Assembly (NCBI RefSeq): GCF_014205215.1
Contig: NZ_JACHNC010000001.1
Coordinates: forward strand, 6,258,501 to 6,322,500
Direction of reading: 5' to 3'
DNA: 64,000 bases
DNA from: Actinoplanes lobatus
GTDB taxonomy: Bacteria; Actinomycetota; Actinomycetes; Mycobacteriales; Micromonosporaceae
The position numbers and the translations under genes are program-made. The notes below the pieces were generated by a model. It was not told the origin of the DNA. It searched no databases and saw nothing but the letters and a program-made list of their open reading frames with translations. Positions 14,967-58,335 of the stretch are shown here, piece after piece (the first letter of the stretch is position 1; every line of letters starts with the position of its first letter).

Positions 14967-14983
14967 GAACTGAGCCTAGGAAC

Positions 14984-15012
14984 GGAAGTGACCTCAGCTA
15001 TGGTTCATTTCC
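14984..15012. promoter_or_regulatory. Inverted repeat in the MocR/AhpD divergent promoter
   Basis: GGAAGTGACC (14984-14993) and GGTTCATTTCC (15002-15012) are near-perfect inverted arms, with one mismatch and one bulge. They lie in the 46-bp gap between divergent genes. The right arm abuts the MocR ATG, so binding there would block both promoters. It is a good candidate for the MocR regulator's own operator. Confidence 0.5.
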
Positions 15013-36813: not shown

Positions 36814-38039
36814 ACCTTGGCGACCTTGATCTCGCCGTGGCGGTGCTGGCGGATTCCGGTGGCGACACCGGCGGTCAGCACCGCGGCGTACAGGGCGACC
36901 AGCACCCCCGGGGCCAGATCCAGCACCATGATCAGCGTGACGGCCGGAATGCCGAGGCCCGGCCAGATCAGCGCGGCCCGGTAGCGGCGCGACAGCACGC
37001 CCTGGATGCCGGCCGCGCTGAGCAGATAGCCGGTCAGGCCCAGGCCGAGGACACCACGCGTACCGGCGCTGAGATGCTCCTCCGAACCGTGCGTGATCGC
37101 GCCCTCCAGCCCGACCGCCACCGCCGCGAGGCTGACCGCGACCGGCAGATGGGCGTACACGTAGAAGTCGTGCACCCCCTGGTAGGTCCGCTTGCCGCCC
37201 TCCTGCACCAGCCGCCGTTTCGCCGCACCGCCGGACAGGTCGAAATACGACCACCACAGCGCGGCGGCCACCAGGAAGGCGGCGCCGGCCGTGGTCGTCG
37301 CGCCGGCCGTCCACTTCCCGTCGTGCAGGCCGTGCACGGTCGCGGCCACCGACTCACCGAGCAGCAGGATCACGAACAGCCCGAACCGCTCCGGCAGGTG
37401 CTCCATGTGCAGTGGCGGGGCGTCCGGCTTGCGGGCGCTCAGGGTCGGGCCGAGCAGATCGACCAGGACGCCGGCCGCCCACAGCGCGTACCGGCCGGGC
37501 GCCGGCACCGCCAGCGACACCAGCCAGAATCCGGCGCCGGCGGCATGACCGATCAGGTACGGCCGGATTCCCGCCCTGGTGTCCGGAAGTGTCCGCCACA
37601 CCCGCAGGTAGCCGACGGTCAGCACGATCCGCAGGACCACGTAGCCGAGCGCGAACCACGTCCCGGCCGGGCCGGTGACCTCGCCGGCGGTCGACGCCAT
37701 CACGATCACCCCGGCCATGCCGGTCAGGGTGAGCAGGCGGAAGATCGCATCGTCGGTGTCGAACCGGTTCGCGTACAGGGTGGTGCTGGCCCACGCCCAC
37801 CAGCCGACCGCGACGACCGCCGCGAACCGCAACCCGCCGCTGACCGTCTCGTGTTTCGCGAGCATGTCCGCGCAGCCGGCCACGAACAGCACGAACGCCA
37901 GGTCGAAGAAGAGCTCCAGCCGGGTCGCCGAACGGTTCGACTCCTGGTTGACGGCGTCGGGCGGGCGGACGAGCTCGCGTTCCTCCCGGTCCTCCCGCTC
38001 CAGGCGGGCGCGGTCCTCGGTGTTCCGCTCTGCTGACAC
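36810..38039 (-). CDS. Low-temperature-requirement A (LtrA)-family membrane protein
   Basis: 409 residues, about ten membrane segments, GTG start. The LtrA signature LELFFDLAFVLFVAGCADML is near residue 42 and RFGLFVILLLGESV near 215. The charged N-terminal 35 residues are cytoplasmic. Named after a Listeria mutant unable to grow in the cold; the biochemical function is unknown. Divergent from the LAL regulator gene. Confidence 0.87.
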   Translation of the reverse strand: MSAERNTEDRARLEREDREERELVRPPDAVNQESNRSATRLELFFDLAFVLFVAGCADMLAKHETVSGGLRFAAVVAVGWWAWASTTLYANRFDTDDAIFRLLTLTGMAGVIVMASTAGEVTGPAGTWFALGYVVLRIVLTVGYLRVWRTLPDTRAGIRPYLIGHAAGAGFWLVSLAVPAPGRYALWAAGVLVDLLGPTLSARKPDAPPLHMEHLPERFGLFVILLLGESVAATVHGLHDGKWTAGATTTAGAAFLVAAALWWSYFDLSGGAAKRRLVQEGGKRTYQGVHDFYVYAHLPVAVSLAAVAVGLEGAITHGSEEHLSAGTRGVLGLGLTGYLLSAAGIQGVLSRRYRAALIWPGLGIPAVTLIMVLDLAPGVLVALYAAVLTAGVATGIRQHRHGEIKVAKV

Positions 38040-45600: not shown

Positions 45601-46555
45601 CGAACACCACGGCCACCGACCGGTCCGTGAAGCGGTCCGCCAACCGCGCCGCGAGGCTCGATTTGCCCAGTCGGCCCTGTCCATGCAGCAGCACGCCGGA
45701 GTGCTCGTTGCCGCGCAGCGCTCGCAGTGCCTGCCGCATCTCGCGACGGCGGCCGACGAACATCTGGGCCGTCGCCACCGGTACATGGCGACGTTTGAGG
45801 TCCAGGAAGGTCTTCCTGCCGTGTTGCGCCGACAACCTCGGCCGTTTGCGCGTACCGGCGACCACCGGGCCACCGCCGGCGGGGCCCAGCCAGATCCGGG
45901 CCAGATGCCAGTCCGCTCGTAGACGGGGCTGCTTGCAGGCCAGCAGCTTCCGGCGGGCGTCGCCTACCGCTGCTGCCAGGTCCTGCCGTAACCCCAACTG
46001 CTGGTAGAGGTGCTGGGCGAAGAGGGTTGCGGCGCCGTCGGTGACGGAACCGTCCCAGCCGACCACGGCCGGTACCCCGGCGGTCACCAGACTGGTGGAC
46101 AGTGAATGCGCCACCGGCACCAACGGGGCCGGGCTCGTCCGCGGGACGGCCGTGTCCGTGGAACGGTGATCCGGGCCCGGTGGCAGATAGCCGTCCGCGT
46201 CTGCCGCGGTCGCGGTCAGGCACGCCGAGACGAACATCAACCGGGGCATCATCGGCAGCCGCCGGACCAGGTCTGCCGCGGTGACGGGCAGGCCGTCGCC
46301 GATCTCGTCCTCCATCATCAGCACCGGCACCCCGGGCCGGTCCGGCGCGGTCGGCCAATTGTTGACCCCATGGCAGGACAGATGCAGCACCGGGAGCCCG
46401 CCGAGATCGGCCCACCGCTGCCCCAACTGGTCCGGGTCGCCGGTGTCCTCCACGACCAGATCCACCCGTGTGTCACCGACCGCGGTCAGGATCGCCGACT
46501 CCTCGGCCTCGAAGTCCAATTCGCGCTGTCCCCGGGGCGCCGACGCCATGAACAT
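42656..46555 (-). CDS. CHAT protease-NTPase-TPR protein, main part of a frameshifted gene
   Basis: 1299 residues from ATG 46555. The CHAT caspase-like domain (about 1-225) keeps the catalytic His62 in HLSCHG and Cys112 in FVSACLTAT. A STAND-type NTPase follows (Walker A HGQGRLGKSS at 291-300, Walker B LLLIIDD at 381-387), then helical repeats ending in ten near-identical 41-residue TPRs (about 800-1205). This is an NLR-like design: repeat sensor, NTPase switch, protease effector. Such proteins occur in bacterial defence and programmed death, but the role here is not shown. The native N-terminus lies in the adjacent frame at 46555-46971; about 13 residues at the join are out of frame. Confidence 0.85.
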   Translation of the reverse strand: MFMASAPRGQRELDFEAEESAILTAVGDTRVDLVVEDTGDPDQLGQRWADLGGLPVLHLSCHGVNNWPTAPDRPGVPVLMMEDEIGDGLPVTAADLVRRLPMMPRLMFVSACLTATAADADGYLPPGPDHRSTDTAVPRTSPAPLVPVAHSLSTSLVTAGVPAVVGWDGSVTDGAATLFAQHLYQQLGLRQDLAAAVGDARRKLLACKQPRLRADWHLARIWLGPAGGGPVVAGTRKRPRLSAQHGRKTFLDLKRRHVPVATAQMFVGRRREMRQALRALRGNEHSGVLLHGQGRLGKSSLAARLADRFTDRSVAVVFGDYTAMGILDAVAAAVEDNAAARSLIEKRRAEVRDEPEALRWVLVDLLSGPCAQAGEEGRRPLLLIIDDLEQILEPQPDAPHRVAGGYAPVLAAVLRAFDPDRGDSRLVVTSRFVFTLDGLENRLELVQLAPLSEVAQLKLAVRHRAVPSEELREARADLATRAVTVSRGNPGLQDLVGLRLVYSAQIDVAHAERAVTEMESYLDRGDLPADAEVRAFVENLALDALIEQAGPAHIALLRSLTLFDLPMPTAVTELLETRTGGSVQRLCGLGLADAFPDIRDPGATATAVSALAAGRLIPLVDSERAELAVMVLEPLLHVWGGAESQATWDLAVDLQLTLLAVLADSPAVIELCAADAITALLAGPAKQALTLGQQAIAVLDRHSTIAPLSLLRQVADAAQTAGEGDTAAAVYNRAVEQAGRADGTTGSIQHARVIGGYANLLITRGELERAVQLLQQAREIFVAVGSELEAAVAWGSVAKVLYQRGDYDESLRIRREVELPVYERLGDTRSIAITWGQIADILYQRGDYDEALRIHQEKALPAFERLGDTHSTAITWGNIADIVYRHGDYDEALRIRREIQLPVYERLGDTRSIAIAWSKIGRVLYHRGDYDEALRIHREKALPAFERLGDARSAAIAWGSIADILRYRGDYDEALRIHREIELPVYERLGDTHSTAITWGTIANILYQRGDHDEALRIHREIQLPAFERLGDTRSTAITWGQIADILHGRGDYDEALRIQRELELPVYKQLGDTRSIAITWGNIATVLHKIGDHDEALRIHREVQLPAFERLGDTRSIAITWGQIAEILHERGDHDEALRIHRELELPAYKQLGDTRSAAITWGQIADILHGRGDHDEALRIRQDEVLPALVRLNDPTGVADSMWRIAQIQAERQDFRSALPNLVKAFQIVDRTQRPDGIAVIGSALGQLLLNGGELDRAREVLGKSLTAARKIGLTSYVEGIGEMLREIDAETRPEGE
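42947..44176 (-). repeat. Ten exact-length 123-bp coding repeats (TPR units)
   Basis: The motif encoding DYDEALRI recurs at 43024, 43147, 43270, 43393, 43516, 43639, 43762, 43885, 44008 and 44131, always exactly 123 bp apart. Each unit encodes 41 residues of the form WGxIADILxxRGDYDEALRI, then REIxLPxxERLGDTRSxAIT. Units alternate between LPVYERLGD and LPAFERLGD forms in part, suggesting amplification in pairs. DNA identity is high, so copy number may vary. Confidence 0.92.
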
Positions 46556-46971
46556 CAGCCCGAGGCGGAAGTCGTCGAGTGCCGGCGCGTCGTCCGGTGC
46601 CCCAGCCGGCGCACCACCTCGAACCGCCGCAACTCATCGGCGGCCAGAAATCCGTGCTGATCGCCGAGAATCTCCCACGGCGCCCGCAACACGGCCCACT
46701 CCGCCGCGGACGGTGACGCCGAAGTCCTCACCTCGAAGACGAGCGGTGTCCTGAACTGGACCTGATCGCCGCCGATCCACGCGAACAGCTTCCGGCCCAG
46801 CGCGACGAAAACCGCGTCATCAGCGTCCGAATGGACCGCGTCCACATACTCGGCAGCCACACCCTGCAGCAGTTCGACGTCGGCCGCCCCCAGGGGGCGA
46901 CGAGCGCCCACCGGCTTCCCGCCGACCAGCACCTCGAACCCGGCACCATCCAGAACCAGACCGGTAACCAC
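46555..46971 (-). pseudogene. N-terminal fragment of the CHAT-NTPase-TPR gene
   Basis: GTG start at 46971 with GGGAGG 9 bases upstream. The first 124 residues, ending GFLAADELRRFEVVRRLG, are the usual pre-CHAT segment. The frame then changes to non-homologous residues and stops at 46555. In the other frame the same DNA reads PDDAPALDDFRLGLMFMASA directly into the main protein. Adding one G to the four-base run at 46600-46603 restores a single protein of about 1437 residues. Read as a frameshift mutation, a programmed shift or a base-calling error. Confidence 0.75.
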
Positions 46972-47062
46972 TCGCGCAGACCTCCCTCACCCGCCTCACC
47001 TGATAACTGGCGGACAGAGGTGGTTCGCGCCGTGGTCGATCTTGTCCGGCTGGTCGTGGGAT

Positions 47063-47100
47063 CGGTTGCCTGGGCCGGCTGAGTGCGGCCCAGGCAACCG
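47063..47100 (-). terminator. Terminator of the nine-gene operon
   Basis: A perfect 15-bp stem, with left arm CGGTTGCCTGGGCCG (47063-47077) and right arm CGGCCCAGGCAACCG (47086-47100) and an 8-base loop, begins one base after the stop of the last operon gene. No T-tract follows, as is common in high-GC actinomycetes. Confidence 0.8.
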
Positions 47101-47101
47101 G

Positions 47102-47512
47102 TCAGCGTTCCGGCTGGTCGGTGTAGCCCTGGCTGATCTCGACGATGACGCCGTCGGGGTCTTTCACCCAGACGGTGCGCCAGCCGGGGATGAACTCGTC
47201 GAAGGCCAGCGGCCCGAGCGACACGTCCAGGTCGCCGGGGACCTGGGCGAGGAAGTCGTCGAGGTCCTCGACCTGGAAGGCGAGGTGCCGCACCATGCCG
47301 GGATGTTGCGGCCCGTCGGCGCCGAAGCTCTCCGGTGACTCGCGGGCCGCGTCGAACAGTTCGAGATGGACGTCGCCCTGCCGCAGGAACACGACGTCGG
47401 TGCCGCCGGCGGTGACCACCCGGGACCGTTCGAAGCCGAACATGTCGTGGTAGAAGCGTTCGGTCGTCTCCTGGTCGCGGCAGTTGAGGCCGACGTGCGC
47501 CCAGCGCACCAT
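47102..47512 (-). CDS. VOC-family (glyoxalase-like) protein
   Basis: 136 residues with two beta-alpha-beta-beta-beta modules. Possible metal ligands are His in WAHVGLNC, Glu/His in DVHLELFD, His in VRHLAFQV and Glu in VIVEISQG, all at the glyoxalase/dioxygenase positions, so a metal site looks intact. Members isomerise, epimerise or open rings of small oxo-compounds. ATG 47512 overlaps the upstream SnoaL-like stop by one base. Last gene of the operon; a terminator follows at once. Confidence 0.85.
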   Translation of the reverse strand: MVRWAHVGLNCRDQETTERFYHDMFGFERSRVVTAGGTDVVFLRQGDVHLELFDAARESPESFGADGPQHPGMVRHLAFQVEDLDDFLAQVPGDLDVSLGPLAFDEFIPGWRTVWVKDPDGVIVEISQGYTDQPER

Positions 47513-47886
47513 CACTGCCCGCTCATGACCGGCGCGAACGGGACGGTGTCGTGGCAGTTGCACATGTAGGTGATCTGCCCGTCGGCGACCTCGAAGTAGT
47601 TGCACACGTCGGCCTCGACGGTGGCCCCGTGCCGGGTACGGCCGGAAATGTGTGAGACGACGGCGGCCTGGCTGTCCGACACGACCATGTGCCGGGGACG
47701 GTTGGCGAAGCTCGCGTACGTCTCGGGAAAGTTCTTCATCATCTCCCGCAGCGTCTCCCGGCCCTCCACGTGACCGGCGAGCTGTTCGTCCATGCGGGTG
47801 TCGGCGGAGAACAGGTCGCACCAGTCGTCCCACTGTCCCGCGTTGGCCAGCTCGTAGTAGCGATCGATGACCTGTCTGGTGTTCAT
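47512..47886 (-). CDS. SnoaL-like protein (first of three)
   Basis: 124 residues, NTF2-like cone fold: IDRYYELANAGQWDDWCDLF opening helix, then FADTRMDEQLAGHVEG-type strand and a C-terminal sheet ending CNYFEVADGQITYMCNCHDT. SnoaL-type folds act as cyclases, isomerases, hydratases or ligand carriers. Two of three Cys lie in the C-terminal strand. It starts 17 bp after the next SnoaL-like gene and overlaps the VOC gene by one base. Confidence 0.8.
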   Translation of the reverse strand: MNTRQVIDRYYELANAGQWDDWCDLFSADTRMDEQLAGHVEGRETLREMMKNFPETYASFANRPRHMVVSDSQAAVVSHISGRTRHGATVEADVCNYFEVADGQITYMCNCHDTVPFAPVMSGQ

Positions 47887-47903
47887 GTCGTCTCCTGACG
47901 GTT

Positions 47904-48335
47904 CTACTCAGGCATGAGGACGCCGACCTGCCGCATCAGCCCGGTCGTGTCGGCCTGGACCCAGCGTTCGACGATCTTGCGGTTCTCGAGGCGGTAGACC
48001 TCGATGCTGGTCCAGCTGACCGGCAGGCCGGTGGGATGGATGCCGAAGATCGGGGCGACGTGGCGGCCGGTGAAGGTGATCTGCATGATCACCCGGCCTC
48101 CGTCGGCGGCGTAGAGGGCGTCCAGGCCGGCCCGGAAGTCGAGGGCCTCCTGCGCGACGGAGAGGAGCCCCTTGAGCGCTTCGAGGCTGTCGACGTTCCA
48201 GGCCGGGTTGTGGTCGACGAAACCCGGGGCGAACAGTTCGTCCATGTCGTCGTAGCGGCGGGCGTTGACGGCGTCGGTGACCCGCCGGACGAGGGCGACG
48301 TTCTCCTGGTCGACGGTGGTGAGGGCGGTGCTCAC
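47904..48335 (-). CDS. SnoaL-like polyketide cyclase-family protein (second of three)
   Basis: 143 residues, GTG start overlapping the upstream stop (GTGA). VRRVTDAVNARRYDDMDELFA, PGFVDHNPAW and a GIHPTGLPVSWTSIEVYRLE strand with KIVERWVQAD are typical of SnoaL (ester cyclase) proteins, including the acid/base Asp-His pair region. Probably acts on a small oxo-intermediate made by the upstream enzymes; no polyketide synthase is nearby. Confidence 0.82.
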   Translation of the reverse strand: MSTALTTVDQENVALVRRVTDAVNARRYDDMDELFAPGFVDHNPAWNVDSLEALKGLLSVAQEALDFRAGLDALYAADGGRVIMQITFTGRHVAPIFGIHPTGLPVSWTSIEVYRLENRKIVERWVQADTTGLMRQVGVLMPE

Positions 48336-48745
48336 AGCGACGTCAGCTCGTCGACGCGGTACTCGGCGATGGCGAGTCCCATCTCGGTGTGGGTGCGGCG
48401 CAGCACCCAGCGCTGGCGGGCGCGCATGGCGAGCCGGGATCCGTCGGAGGTCTGGGTGGCCCGCCACACCACGACCACGTCGACGTTGATGTCGTCGCCG
48501 GCCATGCTGGGGGTGACCTCTTCGACGGTGTGCGACTCGTCGGTGTAGGCGCGGCAGACCGTCGCGTACCAGTCGCGGAAGTCGTCGATGGAGTGCAGCG
48601 TCCGTTCCGGGAACACCATCTCCAGGCCGTCGGTGGCGAGGCAGTCGACCACCTGACCGGACGGGGCGTGCTGGTCGAGGTACTTGAACCAGAGCGCGGC
48701 GAAGGCGGACACGGAGTCGGCCATGGTTTCGGACTTGGTCGTCAC
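48332..48745 (-). CDS. SnoaL-like protein (third of three)
   Basis: 137 residues; GTG 48745 overlaps the stop of the ThDP enzyme gene by 4 bases. ADSVSAFAALWFKYLDQHAP, a central FRDWYATVCRAYTDESHTVEEV and a strand-rich C-terminus ending GLAIAEYRVDEL indicate the NTF2-like fold. ATG 48724 is an alternative start that keeps the fold. It is the most divergent of the three and has no recognisable catalytic pair. Confidence 0.75.
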   Translation of the reverse strand: MTTKSETMADSVSAFAALWFKYLDQHAPSGQVVDCLATDGLEMVFPERTLHSIDDFRDWYATVCRAYTDESHTVEEVTPSMAGDDINVDVVVVWRATQTSDGSRLAMRARQRWVLRRTHTEMGLAIAEYRVDELTSL

Positions 48746-50469
48746 GGTGTGTCTCCAGGATCGTCGAGGACGGCCTCCACGAGGTACGGGCCGTCGTGGT
48801 CGAGCATCGTGCGCAGGATGGTGGGCAGTTCGGCGGCGTGCCGTGCCCGGGCGGCGGGCACACCCATGCCGGCCGCGAGGTTCACGTAGTCGACGCGCGG
48901 TTCCCGTACGTCGAAGAACGGCGGGAACGCGGCGCCGGGATCGTCGTCGTGGTCCTGGCGGTACTGTTCGAGGTTGTCCTTGAGCAGCTGGTAGCCGCCG
49001 TTGTGGCAGACCACGAACTTGGCGCCGATCCGGTGGTGGGCGGCGGTCCACAGTGCCTGGCAGGTGTACATTCCGCCGCCGTCGCCGGTGAAGCCGACGA
49101 CCGTACGCTCGGGGTGTGCGATCTTGGCGCCGATGGCGCCGGGGATTCCGACGCCGAGTGTGCCGCCGGGTGTCTGGAAGAAGTGTCCCGGCCGGGTGGG
49201 TGGCAGCCATCGGGTGAGGGCCGGTGAATTGGTCAGCGCCTCGTCGAAGACGATCGCGTTGTCCGGGAGCAGGGCGGCCAGGGCGGCGGCGACGGCGGAC
49301 ATCCGCAGCGGCGCCGAGTCGGCGTTGCGGCCGGCGCCGAGGTCGTCGGTCAGCGCCCGGTCGAGTTCCGCGGTGCGCTGGACGGTGCGCCGGTGGACCC
49401 GTTCGGCGGCGGCGTGGCGTTGCGGGTCGGTCATCGCCTCCTCGAGCGCGCCGGTCAGGGCGTGCAGGGTGAGCCGTGGGTCGCCGAGCATGCCGCTGGT
49501 CACCGGGTGGTTCTTGGCGATGGCGTACGGGTCGAGGTCGACGTGCACGACGGTGGCGCCGGGCCGGAACGGGTTCTCCAGGTCGGGGAACACGTCCGGG
49601 AACACGTAGGTGCCGCAGATCAGCACCGCGTCGGCCTGCGCGACGAGGGAGGCGCTGCCGTCGCCGAACATGTGCCCGGTCAGGCCGCCCCACAGCGGAT
49701 GGGTCCATGGCATGAGCAGTTCGGAGGCCATCGCCCCGTGCACCACGGCGCCCCAGATCTCGGCGAACCGGGTGAGTTCGGCGACCGCGCCGGAGGCGGC
49801 GATGCCGTCGCCCGCGAGGATCACCGGGGTGTGCGCGCCGGCCAGAAGGCGGGCGGCCGCCTGGATCGCGCCGGGTTCCGGGACGACCCGGGTGTCCGGC
49901 ACGCTGGTCGGCACCACGGGTTCGCCGGAGATCTGGTCGAGCACATCCTGCGGCAGGGCCAGGAACACCGGTCCGCGCGGCGGGGTGGCGGCGACCTTGA
50001 GGCAGCGCCGGACCAGCCGCAGCAGACTGTCCGGGTGGGTGACCCGGGTGGCGTACTTGGTGACCGGTTTGGCGATGTCGACGAGGTTCACCGACATGTG
50101 CGCCTCGAGCGCGTCGTAGGCGACCCCCGCCTCGCCGGCCATCACGAGCATCGGCGTCTGCCGGTGCAGCGCGTGGTAGAGGCTGCCGACCGCGTTGCCG
50201 AGCCCGACGCCACTGTGCAGCAGCACGACGCCGGGCCGGCCGGTGGCCTGCGCGTATCCGTCGGCGGTGCTCACCACGGCGGCCTCCTGGAGACCGAGCA
50301 CGTAGTCGATGTCCGGGAAACGGGCGATCTCGTCGAGCAGCCCCTCCTCGCTGGAGCCGGGGTTGCCGAACAGGAACCGCACGCCGTCGGCGCGCAGCTG
50401 TTCGAGCAGGCGGCGGTGCCCGGTGGCCAGCAGTTCCGGAGCGTCGGTCCGGTCGGTGGTCGCGGTCAT
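48742..50469 (-). CDS. Thiamine-diphosphate decarboxylase (benzoylformate decarboxylase-like)
   Basis: 575 residues in the three-domain ThDP fold. The cofactor-activating Glu is in VLGLQEAAVV near residue 62, the central domain carries PVILAGDGIAASGA, and the ThDP motif GDGGGMYTCQALW ... VCHNGGY lies near 445-480. The substrate could be a 2-oxo acid, with decarboxylation or carboligation as the outcome. Its ATG overlaps the DJ-1 gene stop by 4 bases. It is the likely carbon-carbon bond-cleaving or -forming step of the operon's pathway. Confidence 0.87.
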   Translation of the reverse strand: MTATTDRTDAPELLATGHRRLLEQLRADGVRFLFGNPGSSEEGLLDEIARFPDIDYVLGLQEAAVVSTADGYAQATGRPGVVLLHSGVGLGNAVGSLYHALHRQTPMLVMAGEAGVAYDALEAHMSVNLVDIAKPVTKYATRVTHPDSLLRLVRRCLKVAATPPRGPVFLALPQDVLDQISGEPVVPTSVPDTRVVPEPGAIQAAARLLAGAHTPVILAGDGIAASGAVAELTRFAEIWGAVVHGAMASELLMPWTHPLWGGLTGHMFGDGSASLVAQADAVLICGTYVFPDVFPDLENPFRPGATVVHVDLDPYAIAKNHPVTSGMLGDPRLTLHALTGALEEAMTDPQRHAAAERVHRRTVQRTAELDRALTDDLGAGRNADSAPLRMSAVAAALAALLPDNAIVFDEALTNSPALTRWLPPTRPGHFFQTPGGTLGVGIPGAIGAKIAHPERTVVGFTGDGGGMYTCQALWTAAHHRIGAKFVVCHNGGYQLLKDNLEQYRQDHDDDPGAAFPPFFDVREPRVDYVNLAAGMGVPAARARHAAELPTILRTMLDHDGPYLVEAVLDDPGDTP

Positions 50470-51065
50470 GACACACCCACCGGCACGGCGGACCTCTTCA
50501 AGACCTCCGAGATCACGGTACGGGCGAACTGTCCCGCCTGCGCCCCGGTACGGCCGGTGACCAGATCGTCGTCGACCACCACGTCCTGGTCGACGTACCG
50601 CGCGCCCATGTTGAGCGCGTCGCCGTACAGGTTGGGGTGGCAGGTGAGCCGGCGGCCGCGGACCAGTTCGGGGGTGCGCGACAGCAGCCACAGCCCGTGG
50701 CAGATGATCCCCTTCACGATGCGGGGTTCGGCGAAGGCACGGCGTACGAAATCGGTGGCCGGTGGCAGTTTCGCCAGGTCCTCGCTGTACCGCAGCCGGT
50801 CGCTGACCATGGCGGACGGCACGATGATCGCCGAGTAGGACCGCAGCGTGTCGTCGTCCATGTTCTCGAAGGACTCGGCGCAGACGAACGGGGCCTTGTA
50901 CTCGTGGCCGGTGAAGGTGATCGACTCTTGGCCCCAGAGGCGGGTGAGGAAGTGCAGTTCGGCGCCCTCCTCCGGGAACCGGTACGAGTAGTACCAGATC
51001 TCGTGCTCGTAGAAGTCGCTCTCGACCAGGACCGCGATCCGGTGCCCGGCCAGTGCCCCGGTCAC
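50466..51065 (-). CDS. DJ-1/PfpI-family protein (small)
   Basis: 199 residues; GTG start overlaps the upstream stop by 4 bases. The nucleophilic elbow Cys is in KGIICHGLWLL near residue 120, with the acidic partner region in VLVESDFYEHE near residue 16. The family contains glyoxalases, deglycases, hydrolases and chaperones. With a second DJ-1 protein and a VOC protein in the same operon, handling of a dicarbonyl compound is plausible. Confidence 0.83.
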   Translation of the reverse strand: MTGALAGHRIAVLVESDFYEHEIWYYSYRFPEEGAELHFLTRLWGQESITFTGHEYKAPFVCAESFENMDDDTLRSYSAIIVPSAMVSDRLRYSEDLAKLPPATDFVRRAFAEPRIVKGIICHGLWLLSRTPELVRGRRLTCHPNLYGDALNMGARYVDQDVVVDDDLVTGRTGAQAGQFARTVISEVLKRSAVPVGVS

Positions 51066-51925
51066 CAGCCGTACCGCCGTAGTCCCTGGTCGAGCACGTC
51101 GACCAGCGCCCGTCCACAGCCGACCGACGACTCGGTGGAGCGGGCCGTGATGAACGGGTGGTCGACGATGACCGACTCGGCGTGGCCGACGTTGCCGATG
51201 AACTCGCCGTCGGGGCCGACCGCGTCGCGCAGGATGAACTCCAGCGGGTAGAACGGTGGGCCGAAGTCGACGTACCCGTCGCCGAAGCCGCGGTTCGAGC
51301 CGTCGACGGCGTGCGGGCCCTCGAAGCCGGTGCCGGCGTGGTAGTCGTAGTCGATGGGATGGCCGGTGACCCGTTTGCCGCGGATGATGCTGAGTTTGCG
51401 CAGCGGGTCGCGGGCGAAGGCGAGGGCCGCGACGCCGTAGCAGACCGCCGCGACGGGCTGGTCGAGGCGGACGAAGCCGAGGATCAGCTCGTGCAGGCGC
51501 TGGTTGTTGGCCAGGTCGATCATGGCGCCGCTGCCGCCGACGATGACGAGCGCGTCGTACGCCGGCAGGTCGTGGGTGACGACCCGCTCGATCGTGCGGT
51601 AGTACTCCTCGGTGTCGCGCAGGTAGGTCGGTGAGCTGGGGTAGGGCCGTTCCGGCAGCCAGCCGGCCAGGTCGTGTGGTTTGTCGAGCCGGTCGGAGGC
51701 GTCGAGTTCCCGGGTCTTGCGGGCCATCTCGTCACTGGTCACCGATTTGCCCTGCGGCGGGTCGACGAAGCCGGGGCTCATGCTGACCGCCAGCGGGGTG
51801 GGCCGGGCGCCGGTCGGGGTGACGAACTCGACCTCGTACCCGGCCTGGTCGCAGGCTTCGAGCGGGCCGATCAGCTCCTCGCCCCAGTAGCCCCACTCGG
51901 AGACGGCGAACAGTACCTTCCTCAT
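51062..51925 (-). CDS. DJ-1/PfpI-family protein (large, HchA-like length)
   Basis: 287 residues. KVLFAVSEWGYWGEELIGPLE opens the fold, GYEVEFVTPTG follows, the nucleophile Cys is in VAAVCYGVAALAF near residue 158 and a VIVGGSGAMIDLANNQRLHE segment lies before it. The length and inserted cap resemble Hsp31/HchA-type glyoxalase III. ATG overlaps the upstream AGE gene stop by 4 bases and the stop overlaps the small DJ-1 gene. Confidence 0.84.
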   Translation of the reverse strand: MRKVLFAVSEWGYWGEELIGPLEACDQAGYEVEFVTPTGARPTPLAVSMSPGFVDPPQGKSVTSDEMARKTRELDASDRLDKPHDLAGWLPERPYPSSPTYLRDTEEYYRTIERVVTHDLPAYDALVIVGGSGAMIDLANNQRLHELILGFVRLDQPVAAVCYGVAALAFARDPLRKLSIIRGKRVTGHPIDYDYHAGTGFEGPHAVDGSNRGFGDGYVDFGPPFYPLEFILRDAVGPDGEFIGNVGHAESVIVDHPFITARSTESSVGCGRALVDVLDQGLRRYGW

Positions 51926-54108
51926 CGGGGGCCTCCCGTGGTCGCGAGTTCCTGGATCAGTTCGCTGTCGCGCAGTTGGTCGGCGACCTGGCCGGTGGCG
52001 TTGACGACGGCGATCGTGTAGTCGGCGTGCTGGCGGGTGAGGGCGAGGTCGCGGACCGCGGCGCTGTCGATGTGCATCAGGTCGGCGGCGTCGAGGACGA
52101 TCGCGGTGCAGCCGATCCGGCGGGCCTCGTCGAGGCGGGCGTGCAGGGCCGGCAGGGTGTTCAGGCTCAGGGTGCCGTCCAGGGAGATGTCGGCCCGGCC
52201 GCCCTCGCTGCCGGTGAGGTCGGCGCTGAACGCCAGGCCGGCGGGGGTCATCCGGACCCGTACCGTCTGGGGTTGGTCGGCGTGCGGAAGGGTGATGGTG
52301 AGCGCGTCCGGGTCGAAGTCGTGGTGTTCGTGGCCGTTGATCCAGACCTGCATGATCTGTGCGCGGCCGGGTGGCAGCAGGTCGGGCGCCACCCGGAGGG
52401 TAGCGCCGAACGCGCCGGGCTGGGGCTGGAACCACATGTCGAGTGGTTCGTCGCGGCGCAGCAGGTTGCCGTAGACGGCGGCCAGGTAGCCGAGTTCGGC
52501 GCTGTGGTACATGGCCATCGAGTGCGAGCCCTTGCTGCGTTCGCCGCCCATCTCGAACGGGGTGCCGTTGGCGAGGACGTTGAAGTAGACGCCGCCGGCG
52601 CCGGTGTCGAGCATCCACGCGTTGTAGAAGGCGGCGCCCTCGCGGGCCTGTTTGGCGTATTCGGGGCGGTGCAGCACCCCGTCCAGGATCAGGTAGGCGA
52701 GGATGCCCTGTTCCTGCTGCCACCAGGCCTTGCGGTCGTGCCACACCAGACGGTGGAAGTGTTCGCCGGGGCCGGTGACCCGTTCCACCATGTCGTACCA
52801 GCCGCCGCGCTGCGGGTCGGAGCCGACGGACGGCATCAGGTCGGCGATGCGGGTGGCGAGGTCGACGTAGGAGTCCTTGGGGCGCAGGCTGTTCATGCGC
52901 ATCAGGTTCCAGGCGATCTTCAGGTTGTGGCCGACGATGGCCCGGTTCTGCTGCTGGCCGTACGCCTGGTCCTTGCTCCAGTCGCCGAAGAACTTCTCCT
53001 GTACGAACGGGCTGGCGTCGTAGTCGGGGAAGCGGTCGACGACCGTGTCGCAGCAGTCCTCGAGCATGTCGGCGTACCGCTGCTCGCCGGTGGCCAGGTA
53101 GAGGTTGATGAGGTAGGCGGGGATGTGGTCGCCGACGGAGTTCCAGTTCTTGCGGTCGGCGTTGGTGTGACCGTCGGTATCCAGGGCGGGGCTGCGCGGG
53201 TCGAAGGTGACCGGATCGATGTGCGAGTAGTAGCCGCCGCGGTCCGGGTCGCGGAAGTATTTCTGGAACAGGTTGATGGTCAGGTCGATGATCTCGCGCA
53301 GTTTCGGTTCGCCGGTCAGCCGGTAGACCTGGGTGAGGCCGGCGACCGCGTAGATCTGCTCGTAGCAGGGGATGGCGTTGTAGTCGTCGCCGAACTCGGA
53401 CGCCAGGATCTTGCGCTCGCCGCCGTCGGGCAGCACGTCGATGGCGTGGTACCAGTAGGCGATGTGCTGGCTGCGGTCCACGGCGCAGAAGTGCTCGATG
53501 AGGTATTCGGCGCCGGCGACGGCCGCGTCCAGGTAGGCCTGGCCGCCGTTGAGCAGGTAGGCGGTGGACAGTCCGTAGATGAGCCGGGAGATGGTGTCGG
53601 TCTCCTGCCGGATCGTCTGCGTCTTGGTGCCGAGCATCGACAGGTCGGTGCGGTAGCCGCGGAAGTCGTAGCCGGTGCCGGCGCCGGCGCCGCCGAACTC
53701 GGCCATCAGGTAGAAGTCGGCGATGGCGCGGACCTGCCGCTGCCACCAGTCCGGGGCCTCGAACCGGTATTCGTCGGCCTCCTTGCCGAACAGCAGGACG
53801 TGTTTGGCCTCGAAGCCGGTGCCGTTGTCCTCGTTGGGGTAGAAGACGCCGTAGACGTGGATGAACCGGCCGGGTTGCAGCAGGCCGCGCATCTGGGCGC
53901 CGGCGTCGACGTACGCCTCGCCGAGGTTGCGCAGCATCTCCGCGACGGTGGTCGGGGTGAGCCGGGCGGCGAACGGCCGACCGTCGGAGGTGCGCAGGCC
54001 GACCGTGTCGGTGTCCGGGTCGTAGCCGGTGACGTACCCGGCGACCAGGTCGGAAAAGGTGAAGGTGATCTGGTTGACCTGTTCGTCCAGGCCGATGGCA
54101 GGGTTCAC
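51922..54108 (-). CDS. AGE-family epimerase/isomerase fused to a C-terminal STAS domain
   Basis: 728 residues, GTG start overlapping the glgX stop. Residues 1-120 form an unfamiliar extension. About 125-550 form the (alpha/alpha)6 barrel of N-acylglucosamine 2-epimerase/cellobiose epimerase, with RQETDTISRLIYGLS, IVGHNLKIAWNLMR (391-404) and RKAWWQQEQGILAYL (459-473) holding the catalytic His/Arg/Trp. About 560-630 is a strand-rich linker. About 638-728 is a STAS domain, with ADISLDGTLSLNTLPALHARLD and LDAADLMHIDSAAVRDLAL; Ser682 sits where anti-anti-sigma factors are phosphorylated. It probably interconverts or isomerises a sugar and may be switched by a kinase or partner. Confidence 0.85.
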   Translation of the reverse strand: MNPAIGLDEQVNQITFTFSDLVAGYVTGYDPDTDTVGLRTSDGRPFAARLTPTTVAEMLRNLGEAYVDAGAQMRGLLQPGRFIHVYGVFYPNEDNGTGFEAKHVLLFGKEADEYRFEAPDWWQRQVRAIADFYLMAEFGGAGAGTGYDFRGYRTDLSMLGTKTQTIRQETDTISRLIYGLSTAYLLNGGQAYLDAAVAGAEYLIEHFCAVDRSQHIAYWYHAIDVLPDGGERKILASEFGDDYNAIPCYEQIYAVAGLTQVYRLTGEPKLREIIDLTINLFQKYFRDPDRGGYYSHIDPVTFDPRSPALDTDGHTNADRKNWNSVGDHIPAYLINLYLATGEQRYADMLEDCCDTVVDRFPDYDASPFVQEKFFGDWSKDQAYGQQQNRAIVGHNLKIAWNLMRMNSLRPKDSYVDLATRIADLMPSVGSDPQRGGWYDMVERVTGPGEHFHRLVWHDRKAWWQQEQGILAYLILDGVLHRPEYAKQAREGAAFYNAWMLDTGAGGVYFNVLANGTPFEMGGERSKGSHSMAMYHSAELGYLAAVYGNLLRRDEPLDMWFQPQPGAFGATLRVAPDLLPPGRAQIMQVWINGHEHHDFDPDALTITLPHADQPQTVRVRMTPAGLAFSADLTGSEGGRADISLDGTLSLNTLPALHARLDEARRIGCTAIVLDAADLMHIDSAAVRDLALTRQHADYTIAVVNATGQVADQLRDSELIQELATTGGPR

Positions 54109-56204
54109 GGTGTTTCTCCAGACAGGGCCCGCAGCAGCACGATGCTGTGCGCGGTGACCAGATAGCCGGCGGTGGTGACGGGCTGCTCGGCGCCGAGGTC
54201 GGCGATGTCGGCCGGTGCGGCGAGCGCGGTGTCGAGGACCCGCGCCCAGCGGCGTCCCGGGTCGAGGTCGAAGAGCAGCGGCTCGGTGTGCATGTTCATC
54301 ATCAGGTGCAGGTCGGGCTCGCCACCGAGGCCGGCGACGGTGCAGGCGAAGGCGCGGCCCTGCGGGTCCTGCCAGTCGGGCCGGTCGAGCCGGGTGCCGT
54401 GCCAGCGGATGTCGGGCACGCCGCGATCGTCGGGCAGTCCGGTGTAGAACCCGTCGTGCCGCAACGACATGTGGCGGCGGCGCCGCGCGATCAGCTGGCT
54501 CCAGAACCGCAGCAGGCCGTGGTTCTGTTCGGCCGCGGTCCAGTCGAACCAGCTGATCGGGTTGTCCTGGCAGTAGGCGTTGTTGTTGCCCTGCTGGGTG
54601 CGGGCCACCTCGTCCCCGGCGGTGATCATCGGTACGCCGCGGGAGACCAGCAGCAGGACGGCGAAATTCTTGATCTGCCGGGTCCGCAGCGCCAGCACCT
54701 CGGGGTCGTCGGTGGGCCCTTCGGCGCCGCAGTTCCAGCTCATGTTGTCGTCGTTGCCGTCCCGGTTGTCCTCGCCGTTGGCCTCGTTGTGCTTGCGGTC
54801 GTAGGCGACCAGGTCGGCCAGGGTGAATCCGTCGTGGCAGGTGACGAAGTTGACGCTGTTGACCGGCCGGTGCCCGCGTGCCTGGTAGAGGCCGGCGCTG
54901 CCGCCGAGGCAGTCGGCCATCTCGCCGATCAGGCCGGGCTCGCCGCGCACGAACCGGCGGACGGTGTCGCGGAACCTCCCGTTCCATTCGGCCCACCGGT
55001 ATCCGGGGTAGCTGCCGACCTCGTAGGCGCCGGCGGCGTCCCACGCCTCGGCGATGATCTTCGTGTTGGCGAGGGTGTCGGACAGTTCGATCTGCCACAC
55101 CACCGGCGGTTCGTCGAGGACCGCGCCGCCGGGCCCGCGGGTCAGCACCGCGGCCTCGTCGAAGCGGAAGCCGTCGACGTGCATCTCCCGTACCCAGTAC
55201 TCCAGGCATTCCACGATCATCTTGGTGACGATCGGGTGGTTGGACATGAGCGTGTTGCCGCAACCCGAGTAGTCGTCGTAGTAGCGGCGGTCGGCCTGGT
55301 GCAGGTAGTAGTAGTTGGCGTTGTCCAGCCCCGCCCAGCAGAACAGCGGGCCCAGGTGGTTGCCCTCGTCGGTGTGGTTGAAGACGACGTCGAGGATGAC
55401 CTCGATCCCGGCCCGGTGCAGGGCTTTCACCATGTCCCGGAACTCGGCGACGTGCCTGCCGGCCTGCGGCTCCACGCAGTAGGCGGCGTGCGGGGCGAAG
55501 TAGCCGGCGGTGCTGTAGCCCCAGTAGTTGTTCACGGTCGCGTCGAAGTCGCACACCGGCAGCAGCTCCACGGCCGTGACGCCGAGCGCCGTGAGGTAGG
55601 GGATCTTGTCGATGATCGCGGCGAAGGTGCCGGGCCGGGCCACCCCGGAACCGGGCGACCGGGTGAAGCCGCCGACGTGTATCTCGTAGATCACCATCTC
55701 GGCGATCGGGCGGTTCAGCGGCCGGTCGCCCTCCCAGTCGTAGTACCGCTCGTCGATCACCGCGCATCGTAGTGAGGTGGCCGTCGTGTCGCCCGGCCCG
55801 CAGGCCGCCTCCCGGTCCCAACGGCCACGATCAAGACCGCGGGCGTACGGATCGGCGAGCACTTTGCCGGAGTCGAACCGCATGCCGAGCTCCCGAGCGC
55901 CGTCACCTTCCGGGCCGAACACCCGCAGGGCGTAGAACGACGGAGCGCGCTGGCCGCGCAGGTACACGTGCCAGACGGCGAAGCTGCGGTTGCGGTCCGG
56001 GTCGAGGGTGACCGTCTGCACGGGTTCGGCGTCGCCGGGCTGGTCGAAGATGAGCAGCTCGATGCCGGTGGCGTTTTCGGAGAAGAACGCGTAGTTCACG
56101 CCGTCGTCGTCCGGGGTGGCTCCGAGCGGGTGGCCGCGGCCGGGTTCGGGCTGAAAGTGGGCTTCGCCAGCGGCGTACGGCCGGCGGAGCTGGCTGACGC
56201 TCAT
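54105..56204 (-). CDS. glgX: Glycogen debranching enzyme, GlgX/isoamylase type (GH13)
   Basis: 699 residues. An N-terminal carbohydrate-binding beta-domain (about 20-130) precedes the GH13 barrel. NHTDEGNHLGP, the nucleophile Asp in HVDGFRFDEAAVL, the acid/base Glu in TKIIAEAWDAAG and the VTCHDGFTL transition-state Asp are all present, so it should cleave alpha-1,6 linkages of glycogen-like glucan. First gene of the nine-gene operon. No Shine-Dalgarno: TAGGCT ends 6 bases before the ATG, implying a leaderless mRNA. A dedicated housekeeping glgX would not usually sit with these partners. Confidence 0.9.
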   Translation of the reverse strand: MSVSQLRRPYAAGEAHFQPEPGRGHPLGATPDDDGVNYAFFSENATGIELLIFDQPGDAEPVQTVTLDPDRNRSFAVWHVYLRGQRAPSFYALRVFGPEGDGARELGMRFDSGKVLADPYARGLDRGRWDREAACGPGDTTATSLRCAVIDERYYDWEGDRPLNRPIAEMVIYEIHVGGFTRSPGSGVARPGTFAAIIDKIPYLTALGVTAVELLPVCDFDATVNNYWGYSTAGYFAPHAAYCVEPQAGRHVAEFRDMVKALHRAGIEVILDVVFNHTDEGNHLGPLFCWAGLDNANYYYLHQADRRYYDDYSGCGNTLMSNHPIVTKMIVECLEYWVREMHVDGFRFDEAAVLTRGPGGAVLDEPPVVWQIELSDTLANTKIIAEAWDAAGAYEVGSYPGYRWAEWNGRFRDTVRRFVRGEPGLIGEMADCLGGSAGLYQARGHRPVNSVNFVTCHDGFTLADLVAYDRKHNEANGEDNRDGNDDNMSWNCGAEGPTDDPEVLALRTRQIKNFAVLLLVSRGVPMITAGDEVARTQQGNNNAYCQDNPISWFDWTAAEQNHGLLRFWSQLIARRRRHMSLRHDGFYTGLPDDRGVPDIRWHGTRLDRPDWQDPQGRAFACTVAGLGGEPDLHLMMNMHTEPLLFDLDPGRRWARVLDTALAAPADIADLGAEQPVTTAGYLVTAHSIVLLRALSGETP

Positions 56205-56210
56205 GCCAGA

Positions 56211-56245
56211 AGCCTAGGGAGTAACGCGAACAATTTTCGTGTTAC
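56211..56245 (-). promoter_or_regulatory. Operon promoter -10 box and inverted repeat
   Basis: TAGGCT (56216-56211) stands 6 bases from the glgX ATG. Just upstream, GTAACGCGAA (56221-56230) and TTCGTGTTAC (56236-56245) are inverted arms with one mismatch and a CAATT centre. The repeat covers the expected -35 region, where no consensus hexamer is found, so an activator or repressor site is likely. Confidence 0.55.
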
Positions 56246-56265
56246 CGGGCAACCGGAACGGCCTC

Positions 56266-57054
56266 TCAGCCGCGGGACTCCAGAAGCTCCACGACGTGGC
56301 GGTAGCTGTCCGGATGGATGCTGACCCGGCCGTCGAACGGGTAGTTCAGCTCCACGGCCAGGAACACGTTGACCCCGATCGTGGCGGACACCCCGGCGAC
56401 CAGGACGCGGCGCAGCAGGCCGTCCCGGACGCCGCAGGTCACGCACAACGACAGCACGACCACCGAGCCGGTGATCACGGAGATCCACACGACATCCGGC
56501 AGCTGCTGCTCATGAGCCAGGCGTACGGCGTCGGCCCGTAACTCGGTCGCCGCCGCCAGCCGCCGCACCGCGTCCAGCATGAACGCGCGCTCCGGCTCGG
56601 TGTGCGGCGTGATGGTGCTGATCGTCGACGCCAGCGAATCGAGCGTCTCACCGACCACCGGCGCGGCCTCGCCGTGGGTCCGGCTCGACCAGTTCTCCAG
56701 AACGTCCCGGTTGTACTCCAGCACGACCTTGCCGATCGCCGCCTGCACCTCCGGACTGGCCACCCGGCTCGCCTCGGCCATCGCGGCCAGATTCATCGCC
56801 TCCGCCTCGGTGGCCGCTCGGGCCTCGCTGCGTTTCTCCCACAACGTCACCACGCACAGGCCGATCGCCACCGAATACACCACCGCCGCCGCGGACAGCA
56901 TGATCCCGGTCGCGTCGTTGTGCTCGCCGCGCCGCCAGTGCGGCACCCACCGGTGCACCAGCGACTCGAGCAACAGCATGAGCACCGGCAGCCCGATCAC
57001 GAGCAGGATCAGGAGGAGCCACTCCGGCACCTCGGCCGCGAGCCACTTCGCCAT
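56266..57054 (-). CDS. DUF4239 (bestrophin-like) membrane protein
   Basis: 262 residues. Two N-terminal membrane segments (LLLILLVIGLPVLMLLLESL and MLSAAAVVYSVAIGLCVVTLW) and two C-terminal ones (VITGSVVVLSLCVTCGV, VLVAGVSATIGVNVFLAVE) flank a helical soluble part (about 85-190), the DUF4239 layout. Ends with NYPFDGRVSI and HPDSYR, conserved in the family. Function unknown; a channel or stress role is speculative. Ends 61 bp before the nine-gene operon on the same strand. Confidence 0.8.
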   Translation of the reverse strand: MAKWLAAEVPEWLLLILLVIGLPVLMLLLESLVHRWVPHWRRGEHNDATGIMLSAAAVVYSVAIGLCVVTLWEKRSEARAATEAEAMNLAAMAEASRVASPEVQAAIGKVVLEYNRDVLENWSSRTHGEAAPVVGETLDSLASTISTITPHTEPERAFMLDAVRRLAAATELRADAVRLAHEQQLPDVVWISVITGSVVVLSLCVTCGVRDGLLRRVLVAGVSATIGVNVFLAVELNYPFDGRVSIHPDSYRHVVELLESRG

Positions 57055-57168
57055 CGTGCCGCATCCCTCCGATGAGGTTCCCCCTGGGCATTCTTGTCTC
57101 GTGGCCGCCCGCCGGACGCCTTTTCGCGATCTCCGTCGCCGGAGGGACACATCCCCGACAATGGACAA

Positions 57169-58335
57169 ATGCGACGTGCCGTCCTGTCCGTGTTGGTAGC
57201 CGCCACCCTCGGCGTGGCCGCCCCGGCCTCCGCCGCGGAAGCCGGATGCGCACCGTCCGCGCGCCCGCACGGCACCGCCGCGACGATCGTGGACATCGCC
57301 CGCGCCGCCGGACGCGAACTCGGCCTCAGCGCGACGGTCGTCCGGGTCACCGTCGGCGGGCGGGAGATCGTGACCGCCGCCACCGGCCAGTCCATGGCCG
57401 GCGTCCCGGCCACCACCGCCATGCGGTTGCGTACCGGAGCGGTCGGCATCACCTACCTGACCGTGCTGCTCCTGCAACTGGCCGACCGGGGTGTCGTGGA
57501 CCTCGACGAGCCGATCGCGCGCTGGTACCCGGACCTGCCGCGCGCCGACAAGGTCACCCTGCGCATGCTCGGCAGCAGCACCTCCGGCTACCCCGACTAC
57601 GTCACCTACCAGCCGTTCGTCGACCGGCTCTACGCCGACCCGTTCCAGCGGTGGACCGAACAGCAGCTCATCGACCTCGCCCTGGCCCGGCCGCTCTGGT
57701 ACGAACCCGGCACCAACTGGAGCTACTCACACGCCAACTTCGTCATCCTCGGCCGCATCCTGCAACGCGTCACCGGCACCCCACTGGACCGTCTGATCCA
57801 CCGGAACATCGTCGAGCCGCTCGGCCTCACCAGCACCGTCAGCACCGACGACGCCGTCGTTCCCGGCCCGGTCCTGCACGCCTACACCACCGAACGCGGC
57901 CGGTTCGAGGAATCCACCTACTGGAACCCGTCCTGGACCACCGCCCACGGCGCCATCCTCACCTCCGACATCTGCGACCTCGCCACCTCGGCACGCGCCG
58001 TCGGCACCGGCCGGCTGCTGTCCGCCCGCGCCCAGCGCACCCTGCTCGACCCCGGCACCGTCGGCCTCGGCGGCCCCACCCGTACCTGCCCGGCGACGAT
58101 CTGCGTCCACCAGACCGGGCGGCGCCACTACGGGCTCGGCGTGGTCGTCGAGGACGGCTGGATCAAGCAGACCCCGTCGTTCGCCGGCTACTCCGCGGTA
58201 CAGGCCTACCTGCCCGGCCGGGACATCGTCATCGCGGTCGCCGCCACCCGCGGCCGTACCACCACCGGGGTGAACTCGGCCCGGACCGTCGCCGACCGGA
58301 TCGCCGCGCTGCTCACCGCGCCGGATAACCCCTAA
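57169..58335 (+). CDS. Secreted serine-hydrolase-fold (beta-lactamase class C-like) pseudoenzyme
   Basis: 388 residues with a signal peptide cleaved after ASAAEA (near residue 24). The fold is that of class C beta-lactamase/D-alanyl-D-alanine carboxypeptidase homologues: [33 protein letters not shown] region and [20 protein letters not shown]. The catalytic SxxK, expected in an IGSVTKT-type segment, reads TGAVGIT, so Ser is Ala and Lys is Ile; the YxN motif is YSH. Hydrolysis by the usual mechanism is not possible. It may bind cell-wall peptide. GACAAT 6 bases before the ATG suggests a leaderless mRNA. Confidence 0.8.

Follow-up and report, generated by a model that had tools for sequence, protein, structure and literature searches.

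Bacterial operons for glycogen catabolism, in which glgX stands with glgP or with glgBCA, and the TreX-TreY-TreZ system have in common an alpha-1,6-debranching enzyme as the step that faces the glucan. The same step is represented in a run of nine minus-strand open reading frames (ORFs), g1 to g9, of Actinoplanes lobatus, which extends from position 56204 down to position 47102 of the stretch of DNA analyzed here (64,000 nucleotides of contig NZ_JACHNC010000001.1, 70.97% GC, from a 10.4-Mb genome; called the window below). In contrast to those systems, the nine genes include no phosphorylase and no TreY or TreZ, and Pfam found neither glgP nor the glgA, glgB, or glgC genes of the classical glycogen operon among them; the GlgX protein of the window belongs to a separate subfamily, and an AGE-STAS protein and a set of carbonyl enzymes stand in the cluster instead. 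In the part of a 2024 review (PMC11046441) covered here, the words epimerase, STAS, and DJ-1 are absent. More generally, no description of this gene set was found in the literature searched (titles and the starts of abstracts, with subscription papers mostly out of reach), and to that extent the initial annotation of the window was right that no described system has it.

The comparisons reported here provide strong support for two points taken jointly, that the genes form a functional unit and that this unit is linked to alpha-glucan. The full explanation that we favor, mechanism included, is that the operon represents one form of a horizontally spread, modular cluster for alpha-glucan processing, and we regard that explanation as having about an even chance of being correct. 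Judged by sequence, a near-constant pair is evident, consisting of a predicted GlgX-type debrancher and an OB-AGE-STAS protein, often accompanied by a DJ-1 protein (DJ1b); a second module comprises another DJ-1 protein (DJ1a) and a thiamine diphosphate (ThDP) enzyme, and an exchangeable third is made up of SnoaL and VOC proteins or of EthD and GMC proteins.

The layout of the operon had been described correctly, as a check of ORF coordinates and junction sequences showed. Six junctions are four-base overlaps (GTGA at g1/g2, g3/g4, g5/g6, and g6/g7; ATGA at g2/g3 and g4/g5), g7 and g8 are separated by a 17-base gap, and g8 and g9 overlap by one base (Table 1). Pfam and NCBIfam also agree with the family names first given. 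Pfam assigns alpha-amylase and CBM48 domains to g1, GlcNAc_2-epim and STAS to g2, ThiJ_like/DJ-1 to g3 (DJ1a), DJ-1_PfpI to g4 (DJ1b), TPP_enzyme N, M, and C domains to g5 (the ThDP enzyme), SnoaL-like families to g6, g7, and g8 (SnoaLa, SnoaLb, and SnoaLc, the first with a score of 22.9, below its own cut-off of 27), and Glyoxalase to g9 (VOC). Rfam gave no match at gathering thresholds over positions 46500 to 57600, and an RNA element in the operon region was ruled out on that basis.

Co-occurrence of the families, which had been suggested as a check, proved to be near perfect for several subfamilies in 150 Micromonosporaceae genomes and 72,556 plasmid records. AGE was present in 12 of the 150 genomes, DJ1b was present in the same 12, with all 14 of its places lying near AGE, and DJ1a was present in 9 of the 12 and nowhere else among the 150 (E 1e-20 in each case). 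SnoaLa (E 1e-6), SnoaLc, and VOC (E 1e-12) were each found in three genomes, the same three, inside the cluster. ThDP matches at E 1e-80 or better occurred in nine genomes, seven of them AGE genomes with scores above 550 bits and two without AGE at 278 to 292 bits. Among the plasmids, AGE was found in 18 records, one of which is a weak 25% match. DJ1a was found in 14, every one of which carries AGE. Of the 17 records with ThDP, the 14 with scores of at least 446 bits carry AGE and the other three (229 to 236 bits) do not; four Streptomyces plasmids in these counts look alike. The plasmid search with SnoaLc matched only a Deinococcus record, implying that the SnoaL module is rare on plasmids. 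Two of the AGE plasmids are typed as conjugative. Hypergeometric values, calculated ignoring relatedness, were 6e-18 for DJ1b, 3e-12 for DJ1a, 4e-4 for the three small genes, and 2e-54 for DJ1a on plasmids. Among 296 Actinomycetota sampled, in a search that scored up to three candidates per genome, AGE was present only in the genome of the window itself; it is also carried by Streptomyces plasmids that do not belong to this sample. Carriage by phages was rejected because none of 50,697 phage records matched AGE.

When genome contigs were scanned with g2, at least 579 relatives were returned; the 80 with the highest scores, a set that over-represents Nostocales, were compared as loci. Eight phyla of the genome sample have AGE loci, and the best 80 are distributed over Cyanobacteriota (40), Actinomycetota (15), Alphaproteobacteria (6), Gammaproteobacteria (6), Planctomycetota (4), Chloroflexota (3), Bacillota (3), Armatimonadota (1), and Bacteroidota (1), with one unassigned. 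At presence thresholds of our own choosing, the GlgX subfamily was found in 70 of these loci, DJ1b in 52, DJ1a in 24, ThDP in 24, VOC in 22, SnoaLa in 17, SnoaLc in 12, and SnoaLb in 6, all of which are lower bounds because contig ends cut some loci; the DJ1b threshold misses distant copies, such as those of two of the three Paenibacillus loci. All nine families are present in three Actinoplanes loci (L008, L023, and L009, the last from Actinoplanes flavus and the nearest of all), eight in a locus of Thiodiazotropha (Gammaproteobacteria; L078), and seven in L086 and in the cyanobacterial locus L037. SnoaLb of L010 was matched by tblastn and is missing from the ORF table. The sets that recur are GlgX with AGE (often with DJ1b), DJ1a with ThDP, and SnoaLa, SnoaLc, and VOC or EthD and GMC. 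Of the 30 loci with DJ1a, ThDP, or both, 18 have both, 6 have only DJ1a, and 6 have only ThDP.

The resemblance of individual genes between loci suggests that the modules have moved. In midpoint-rooted trees with long branches, from which the duplicate loci L101 and L104 to L106 were left out, the ThDP protein of the window groups with its counterparts from L098 and L099 in a clade of ten rows (100/100); the AGE proteins of these two loci are only about 40% identical to that of the window. In L097, AGE is 54% identical and ThDP 50 to 51%. DJ1a of the window is 66 to 70% identical to the copies in five loci, one from a planctomycete and four from cyanobacteria (L025, L060, L070, L072, and L077), 53 to 57% identical to three other cyanobacterial copies, and 44 to 60% identical to the DJ1a proteins of several further clusters in Micromonosporaceae. 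We infer that modules have been exchanged between clusters. L097 and L098 are two clusters in one genome (G035), with AGE proteins 54% and 38% identical to that of the window, and each has DJ1a and ThDP.

The glucan link starts with g1. This protein scores above the TIGR02100 cut-off (665.1 against 640.9 bits) and is the third copy in the genome to do so, the two canonical copies elsewhere scoring 1001 and 999. Its GH13 motifs DGFRFD, AEAWD, and CHDGFT are preserved and contain what we take to be the catalytic Asp, Glu, and Asp; its subfamily signature is FRFDE/AEAWDA, and its best PDB match is plant isoamylase 1. Loci L070 and L072 lack this GlgX, but different GH13 enzymes lie nearby together with an X25-domain protein, so the alpha-glucan link seems to persist when the enzyme is replaced. 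The X25-domain protein occurs in six cyanobacterial loci, and the one member tested gave a CBM48-like match below the cut-off. Four of the eight Streptomyces plasmid loci were viewed, and in these GlgE, GlgB, maltokinase, TreS, or GlgA lies near AGE, a likeness to glycogen operons; among the loci compared, GlgE is close to AGE only there. The link to alpha-glucan drawn in the initial annotation is therefore strong, with a divergent GlgX adjoining AGE and with GH13 and X25 stand-ins where that GlgX is absent.

g2 consists of an OB-like domain (residues ~16 to 110), a barrel (112 to 555) that a superfamily test places in the AGE-type (alpha/alpha)6 fold, and a STAS domain (~620 to 720). It shares the barrel fold, three histidines, and WW and YH motifs with described members of the AGE superfamily (D-mannose isomerase, cellobiose 2-epimerase, and YihS) but differs from them in its N-terminal OB-like and C-terminal STAS domains, in having GHxxK for GHxxE, and in its conserved GlgX partner. 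The histidines, H328, H394, and H535, are kept in all 79 rows of the AGE alignment (two of 81 loci were dropped by ORF picking) and, with partial alignments alongside, we take them to be H200, H259, and H390 of cellobiose epimerase. The STAS domain scores below the Pfam cut-offs (25 against 29.2 for STAS_2 and 21.3 against 22.6 for STAS), and its assignment is supported by a profile search of solved structures. As in partner switching of the SpoIIAA/RsbV type, several loci with a split STAS have a row that contains STAS, HATPase, and SpoIIE as individual genes. The separate STAS gene stands beside partner-switching genes in Deinococcus, in Runella, and in some Streptomyces, and the six loci with a HATPase gene are all of the split type. 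In the window, by contrast, STAS is fused to the enzyme, and tblastn found no partner-switching kinase or phosphatase between positions 36001 and 64000. The phosphosite, S682 in the window, is Ser in 26 and Thr in 15 of the 79 rows (41 with either); it is not conserved in the fused form, and control there is probably weakened or lost. The STAS domain is missing from the AGE proteins of two close Actinoplanes relatives, L010 and L023.

Likely active-site residues are conserved in the carbonyl enzymes. E17 and C162-Y163 of DJ1a are present in 30 of 30 rows, and E15, E22, and C122-H123 of DJ1b, a PfpI/YhbO-like protein, are present in 63 of 63. None of the NCBIfam models for DJ-1 glyoxalase III, HchA, or PfpI deglycase was matched above its cut-off, the best score being that of g4 (71.1 against 139.05; TIGR01382). 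Across 24 VOC rows, position 6 is always His (13) or Gln (11), E51 and E125 are invariant, and H76 is kept in 23, a pattern (H/Q-E-H-E) that we take to be that of the glyoxalase I metal ligands; g9 scored 44.4 against a cut-off of 140 for YaeR (NF050075). Conservation of the DJ-1 and VOC residues supports catalytic activity and makes a 1,2-dicarbonyl step plausible. The dicarbonyl processing proposed for the operon at the outset fits the DJ-1 cysteine and the VOC residues, but it is a guess from families and residues and we treat it as tentative. One of the suggested examples, an anhydrofructose-like metabolite, was rejected, since Pfam identified no alpha-1,4-glucan lyase, anhydrofructose reductase, or dehydratase among the nine genes (a genome-wide search was not made). 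g5 scored 315.6 bits against a cut-off of 493 for benzoylformate decarboxylase (BFD; NF005485). It shares with BFD-like enzymes E62, H85 (BFD H70 by alignment), and the GDG...N cofactor motif, to which we presume the same roles apply. It differs in lacking the second BFD histidine (aligned by eye), in having its own H266 in 31 of 31 rows, and in that its close relatives occur only with AGE in the sets searched.

Taken as a pathway, these proteins could act as follows. GlgX would cut the branches of glycogen to give maltodextrins with freed reducing ends, and the AGE barrel would isomerize or epimerize the reducing-end (or free) sugar with no phosphorylation. The sugar might next be oxidized, dehydrated, or cleaved to 2-oxo-carbonyl compounds, which the DJ-1 and glyoxalase-type VOC proteins would convert to hydroxy acids, while the ThDP enzyme may decarboxylate or join a 2-oxo acid and the SnoaL-like proteins may catalyze isomerase, dehydratase, or cyclase steps. 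Regulation would act through STAS, which some lineages encode in a gene of its own next to a kinase-type and a SpoIIE phosphatase-type gene. Stated most broadly, this would be an undescribed alpha-glucan route mobile between phyla, in which a dedicated OB-AGE(-STAS) protein isomerizes debranched glucan and DJ-1, ThDP, and glyoxalase-type enzymes channel 2-oxo-carbonyl compounds without sugar phosphates, under partner-switching control where STAS is split; in this form the proposal is doubtful.

Much of the gene content would also suit a stress-response island in which glycogen is mobilized for protective solutes or redox power, and DJ-1, VOC, SnoaL, and similar proteins handle carbonyl damage caused by desiccation, cold, or light, with no single product pathway. 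The partner-switch neighbors (STAS, HATPase, and SpoIIE) of other lineages point this way, as do a response regulator-flavin adenine dinucleotide (FAD) reductase in 27 and a cyclic nucleoside monophosphate (cNMP)-binding histidine kinase in 26 of the 40 cyanobacterial loci, the LtrA, superoxide dismutase, cation/proton antiporter, and bestrophin neighbors found elsewhere, and the PfpI/YhbO-like character of DJ1b. However, in neither of the two sets searched is DJ1a or the close ThDP subfamily found without AGE, which calls for a shared substrate, and we know of no usual role for ThDP or AGE enzymes as stress proteins; we consider such an island possible but not probable. Biosynthesis of a small molecule from glucan, such as a pyranone, furanone, or sugar acid, with SnoaL or EthD proteins as cyclases or dehydratases and with redox tailoring by GMC proteins, aldo-keto reductases, and short-chain dehydrogenases/reductases, seems to us unlikely. 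It would explain the membership of SnoaLb in the SnoaL polyketide-cyclase family, the seven annotated ester-cyclase/NTF2 genes of the Runella row, and the EthD proteins, GMC pairs, Nif11-domain proteins, aldo-keto reductases, and muconolactone isomerase family at other loci, but the loci viewed show no constant carrier-protein, export, or resistance gene, and many hold the core without tailoring genes. The Prokaryotic Genome Annotation Pipeline (PGAP) named "Nif11-like leader peptide" genes in one plasmid cluster; a product of the type made from ribosomally synthesized and posttranslationally modified peptides was rejected for the window, the operon of which has no Nif11-type gene. Finally, GlgX is common, and actinomycetes have many small DJ-1, SnoaL, and VOC genes, so that an ordinary glycogen-breakdown gene could have acquired its neighbors by chance. 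Exclusive co-occurrence of subfamilies, the two canonical GlgX copies already present elsewhere in the genome, and the recurrence of the same gene sets across phyla in differing orders make this very improbable, and the co-occurrence counts refute it unless they are sampling artifacts.

Several observations weigh against the modular glucan cluster that we favor, at least as a fixed or indispensable system. No AGE match was found in 138 of the 150 Micromonosporaceae genomes, and three Paenibacillus loci show just DJ1b-like, GlgX, and AGE genes, which makes the system dispensable. SnoaL, VOC, EthD, and GMC content differs between loci, making one fixed pathway unlikely. Nor is the link always tight, since ~25 kb, spanning the start of the record, separates DJ1a from AGE in Nostoc edaphicum. 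The epimerase motif GHxxE, which is GHAIE in 8bry, reads GHNLK in g2, the activity of which could therefore differ. No recurring GlgP or sugar transporter was noticed beside the core, although no dedicated search was made. Relatives lacking most of the nine genes had been named as evidence that would count against a single pathway, and here the outcome is mixed: co-occurrence holds, but AGE is missing from most of the family and several related Micromonosporaceae clusters lack SnoaL and VOC genes. The genes thus do belong together, as a core plus exchangeable modules rather than as one indivisible pathway.

The elements flanking the operon fit the initial description in part. The 61-base stretch at positions 47050 to 47110 folds at -35 kcal/mol (z -6.05; none of 200 shuffles was as stable). 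The hairpin behind g9 is a terminator candidate only, because it has no U-tract and was not reported by a terminator scan requiring one, which listed three other sites (3.0 expected). The inverted repeat in front of the operon is also real, and with up to three mismatches allowed it is the sole such site in the genome. A comparison of 15 upstream regions (the window and 14 Actinomycetota loci) found both arms kept, with one mismatch, in the closest relative, L009; L008, L010, L012, and L023 have not kept the right arm and have a similar left arm and CCTAGGCT. This box is present in 6 of the 15 regions, those of the window and five Actinoplanes orthologues. In the window, only six bases separate TAGGCT from the ATG, which makes the leaderless start originally proposed plausible; the box lies 37 to 38 bases before the ATG in L008 and L012. 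A sigma-70 promoter scan found no promoter. We read the repeat and box as a putative promoter rather than an operator; an operator of a regulon was ruled out by the single genomic site and by retention of the right arm in one of five Actinoplanes orthologues.

Farther out, a bestrophin-like gene upstream has counterparts, at a weak threshold (20% identity), in 13 of the 15 Actinomycetota loci and in 4 of the 6 from Gammaproteobacteria. Downstream of the hairpin, positions 42656 to 46971 encode a 1,299-amino-acid CHAT-AAA-TPR protein and a 138-amino-acid protein without a Pfam family; a CHAT protein is also close to AGE-GlgX in Nostoc NIES-3756. An LtrA-like protein ~9 kb downstream of the operon (37089 to 37946, minus strand) is 28.8% identical (E 2e-17) to LtrA of the Streptomyces plasmid; LtrA is a repeated neighbor in Nostoc clusters and in L103, and its presence in the window may be due to chance. 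L103, an Actinoplanes-genus cluster, contains an animal-heme-peroxidase-family protein (14719 to 16263). An aldo-keto reductase subfamily recurs in L025, L070, L103, and L116, in three phyla, at 46 to 51% identity to the L116 protein. In EthD-type clusters, tandem pairs of proteins of ~105 to 130 amino acids, possibly GMC partners, lie by the GMC pairs (L021, 2916 to 3642; L022, 2768 to 3681; L030, 4184 to 4884; L120, 18164 to 18824); the two tested from L021 and L022 have a Nif11 domain, one from L030 has none, and PGAP names those of L120 natural-product precursors.

Table 1. Genes and flanking elements of the A. lobatus operon (window coordinates)
Feature	Position	Strand	Basis
g1, GlgX, isoamylase-type alpha-1,6-glucan debranching enzyme	54105..56204	-	TIGR02100, GH13 residues, PDB match
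g2, AGE-STAS, OB-like domain, AGE sugar isomerase/epimerase-type barrel, and STAS	51922..54108	-	
g3, DJ1a, DJ-1/ThiJ-like protein with E17, C162-Y163	51062..51925	-	Pfam, alignment
g4, DJ1b, PfpI-type DJ-1 protein with E15, E22, C122-H123	50466..51065	-	Pfam, alignment
g5, ThDP enzyme, benzoylformate decarboxylase-like, own subfamily	48742..50469	-	Pfam, NCBIfam, alignment
g6, SnoaLa, SnoaL-like protein a	48332..48745	-	Pfam score below cut-off
g7, SnoaLb, SnoaL polyketide-cyclase family	47904..48335	-	PF07366, 83.7 bits
g8, SnoaLc, SnoaL-like protein c	47512..47886	-	Pfam
g9, VOC protein with H6, E51, H76, E125 (H/Q-E-H-E pattern)	47102..47512	-	Pfam, alignment
Hairpin immediately after g9, candidate terminator lacking a U-tract	47063..47100	-	Folding versus shuffles
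Imperfect inverted repeat, GTAACaCGAA-5-TTCGcGTTAC	56221..56245	.	Genome-wide site search, upstream comparison
CCTAGGCT box, promoter -10 candidate	56211..56218	-	Upstream comparison
Bestrophin-like gene (PF14023), upstream, same strand	56266..57477	-	Candidate neighbor only, start position unsure

Overall, the unit is broader in distribution and more modular in makeup than an operon of Actinoplanes alone, extending to many bacterial groups and to plasmids, and AGE-STAS, DJ1a, and ThDP offer subfamily markers by which the cluster can be found. It ties PfpI-type DJ-1, SnoaL-like, and VOC families of unclear physiological role to one set of partners, which makes their substrates testable. If the proposal is true, cyanobacteria, actinomycetes, the glycogen-accumulating Competibacteraceae, and others would have a second, phosphorylase-free use of stored glycogen.

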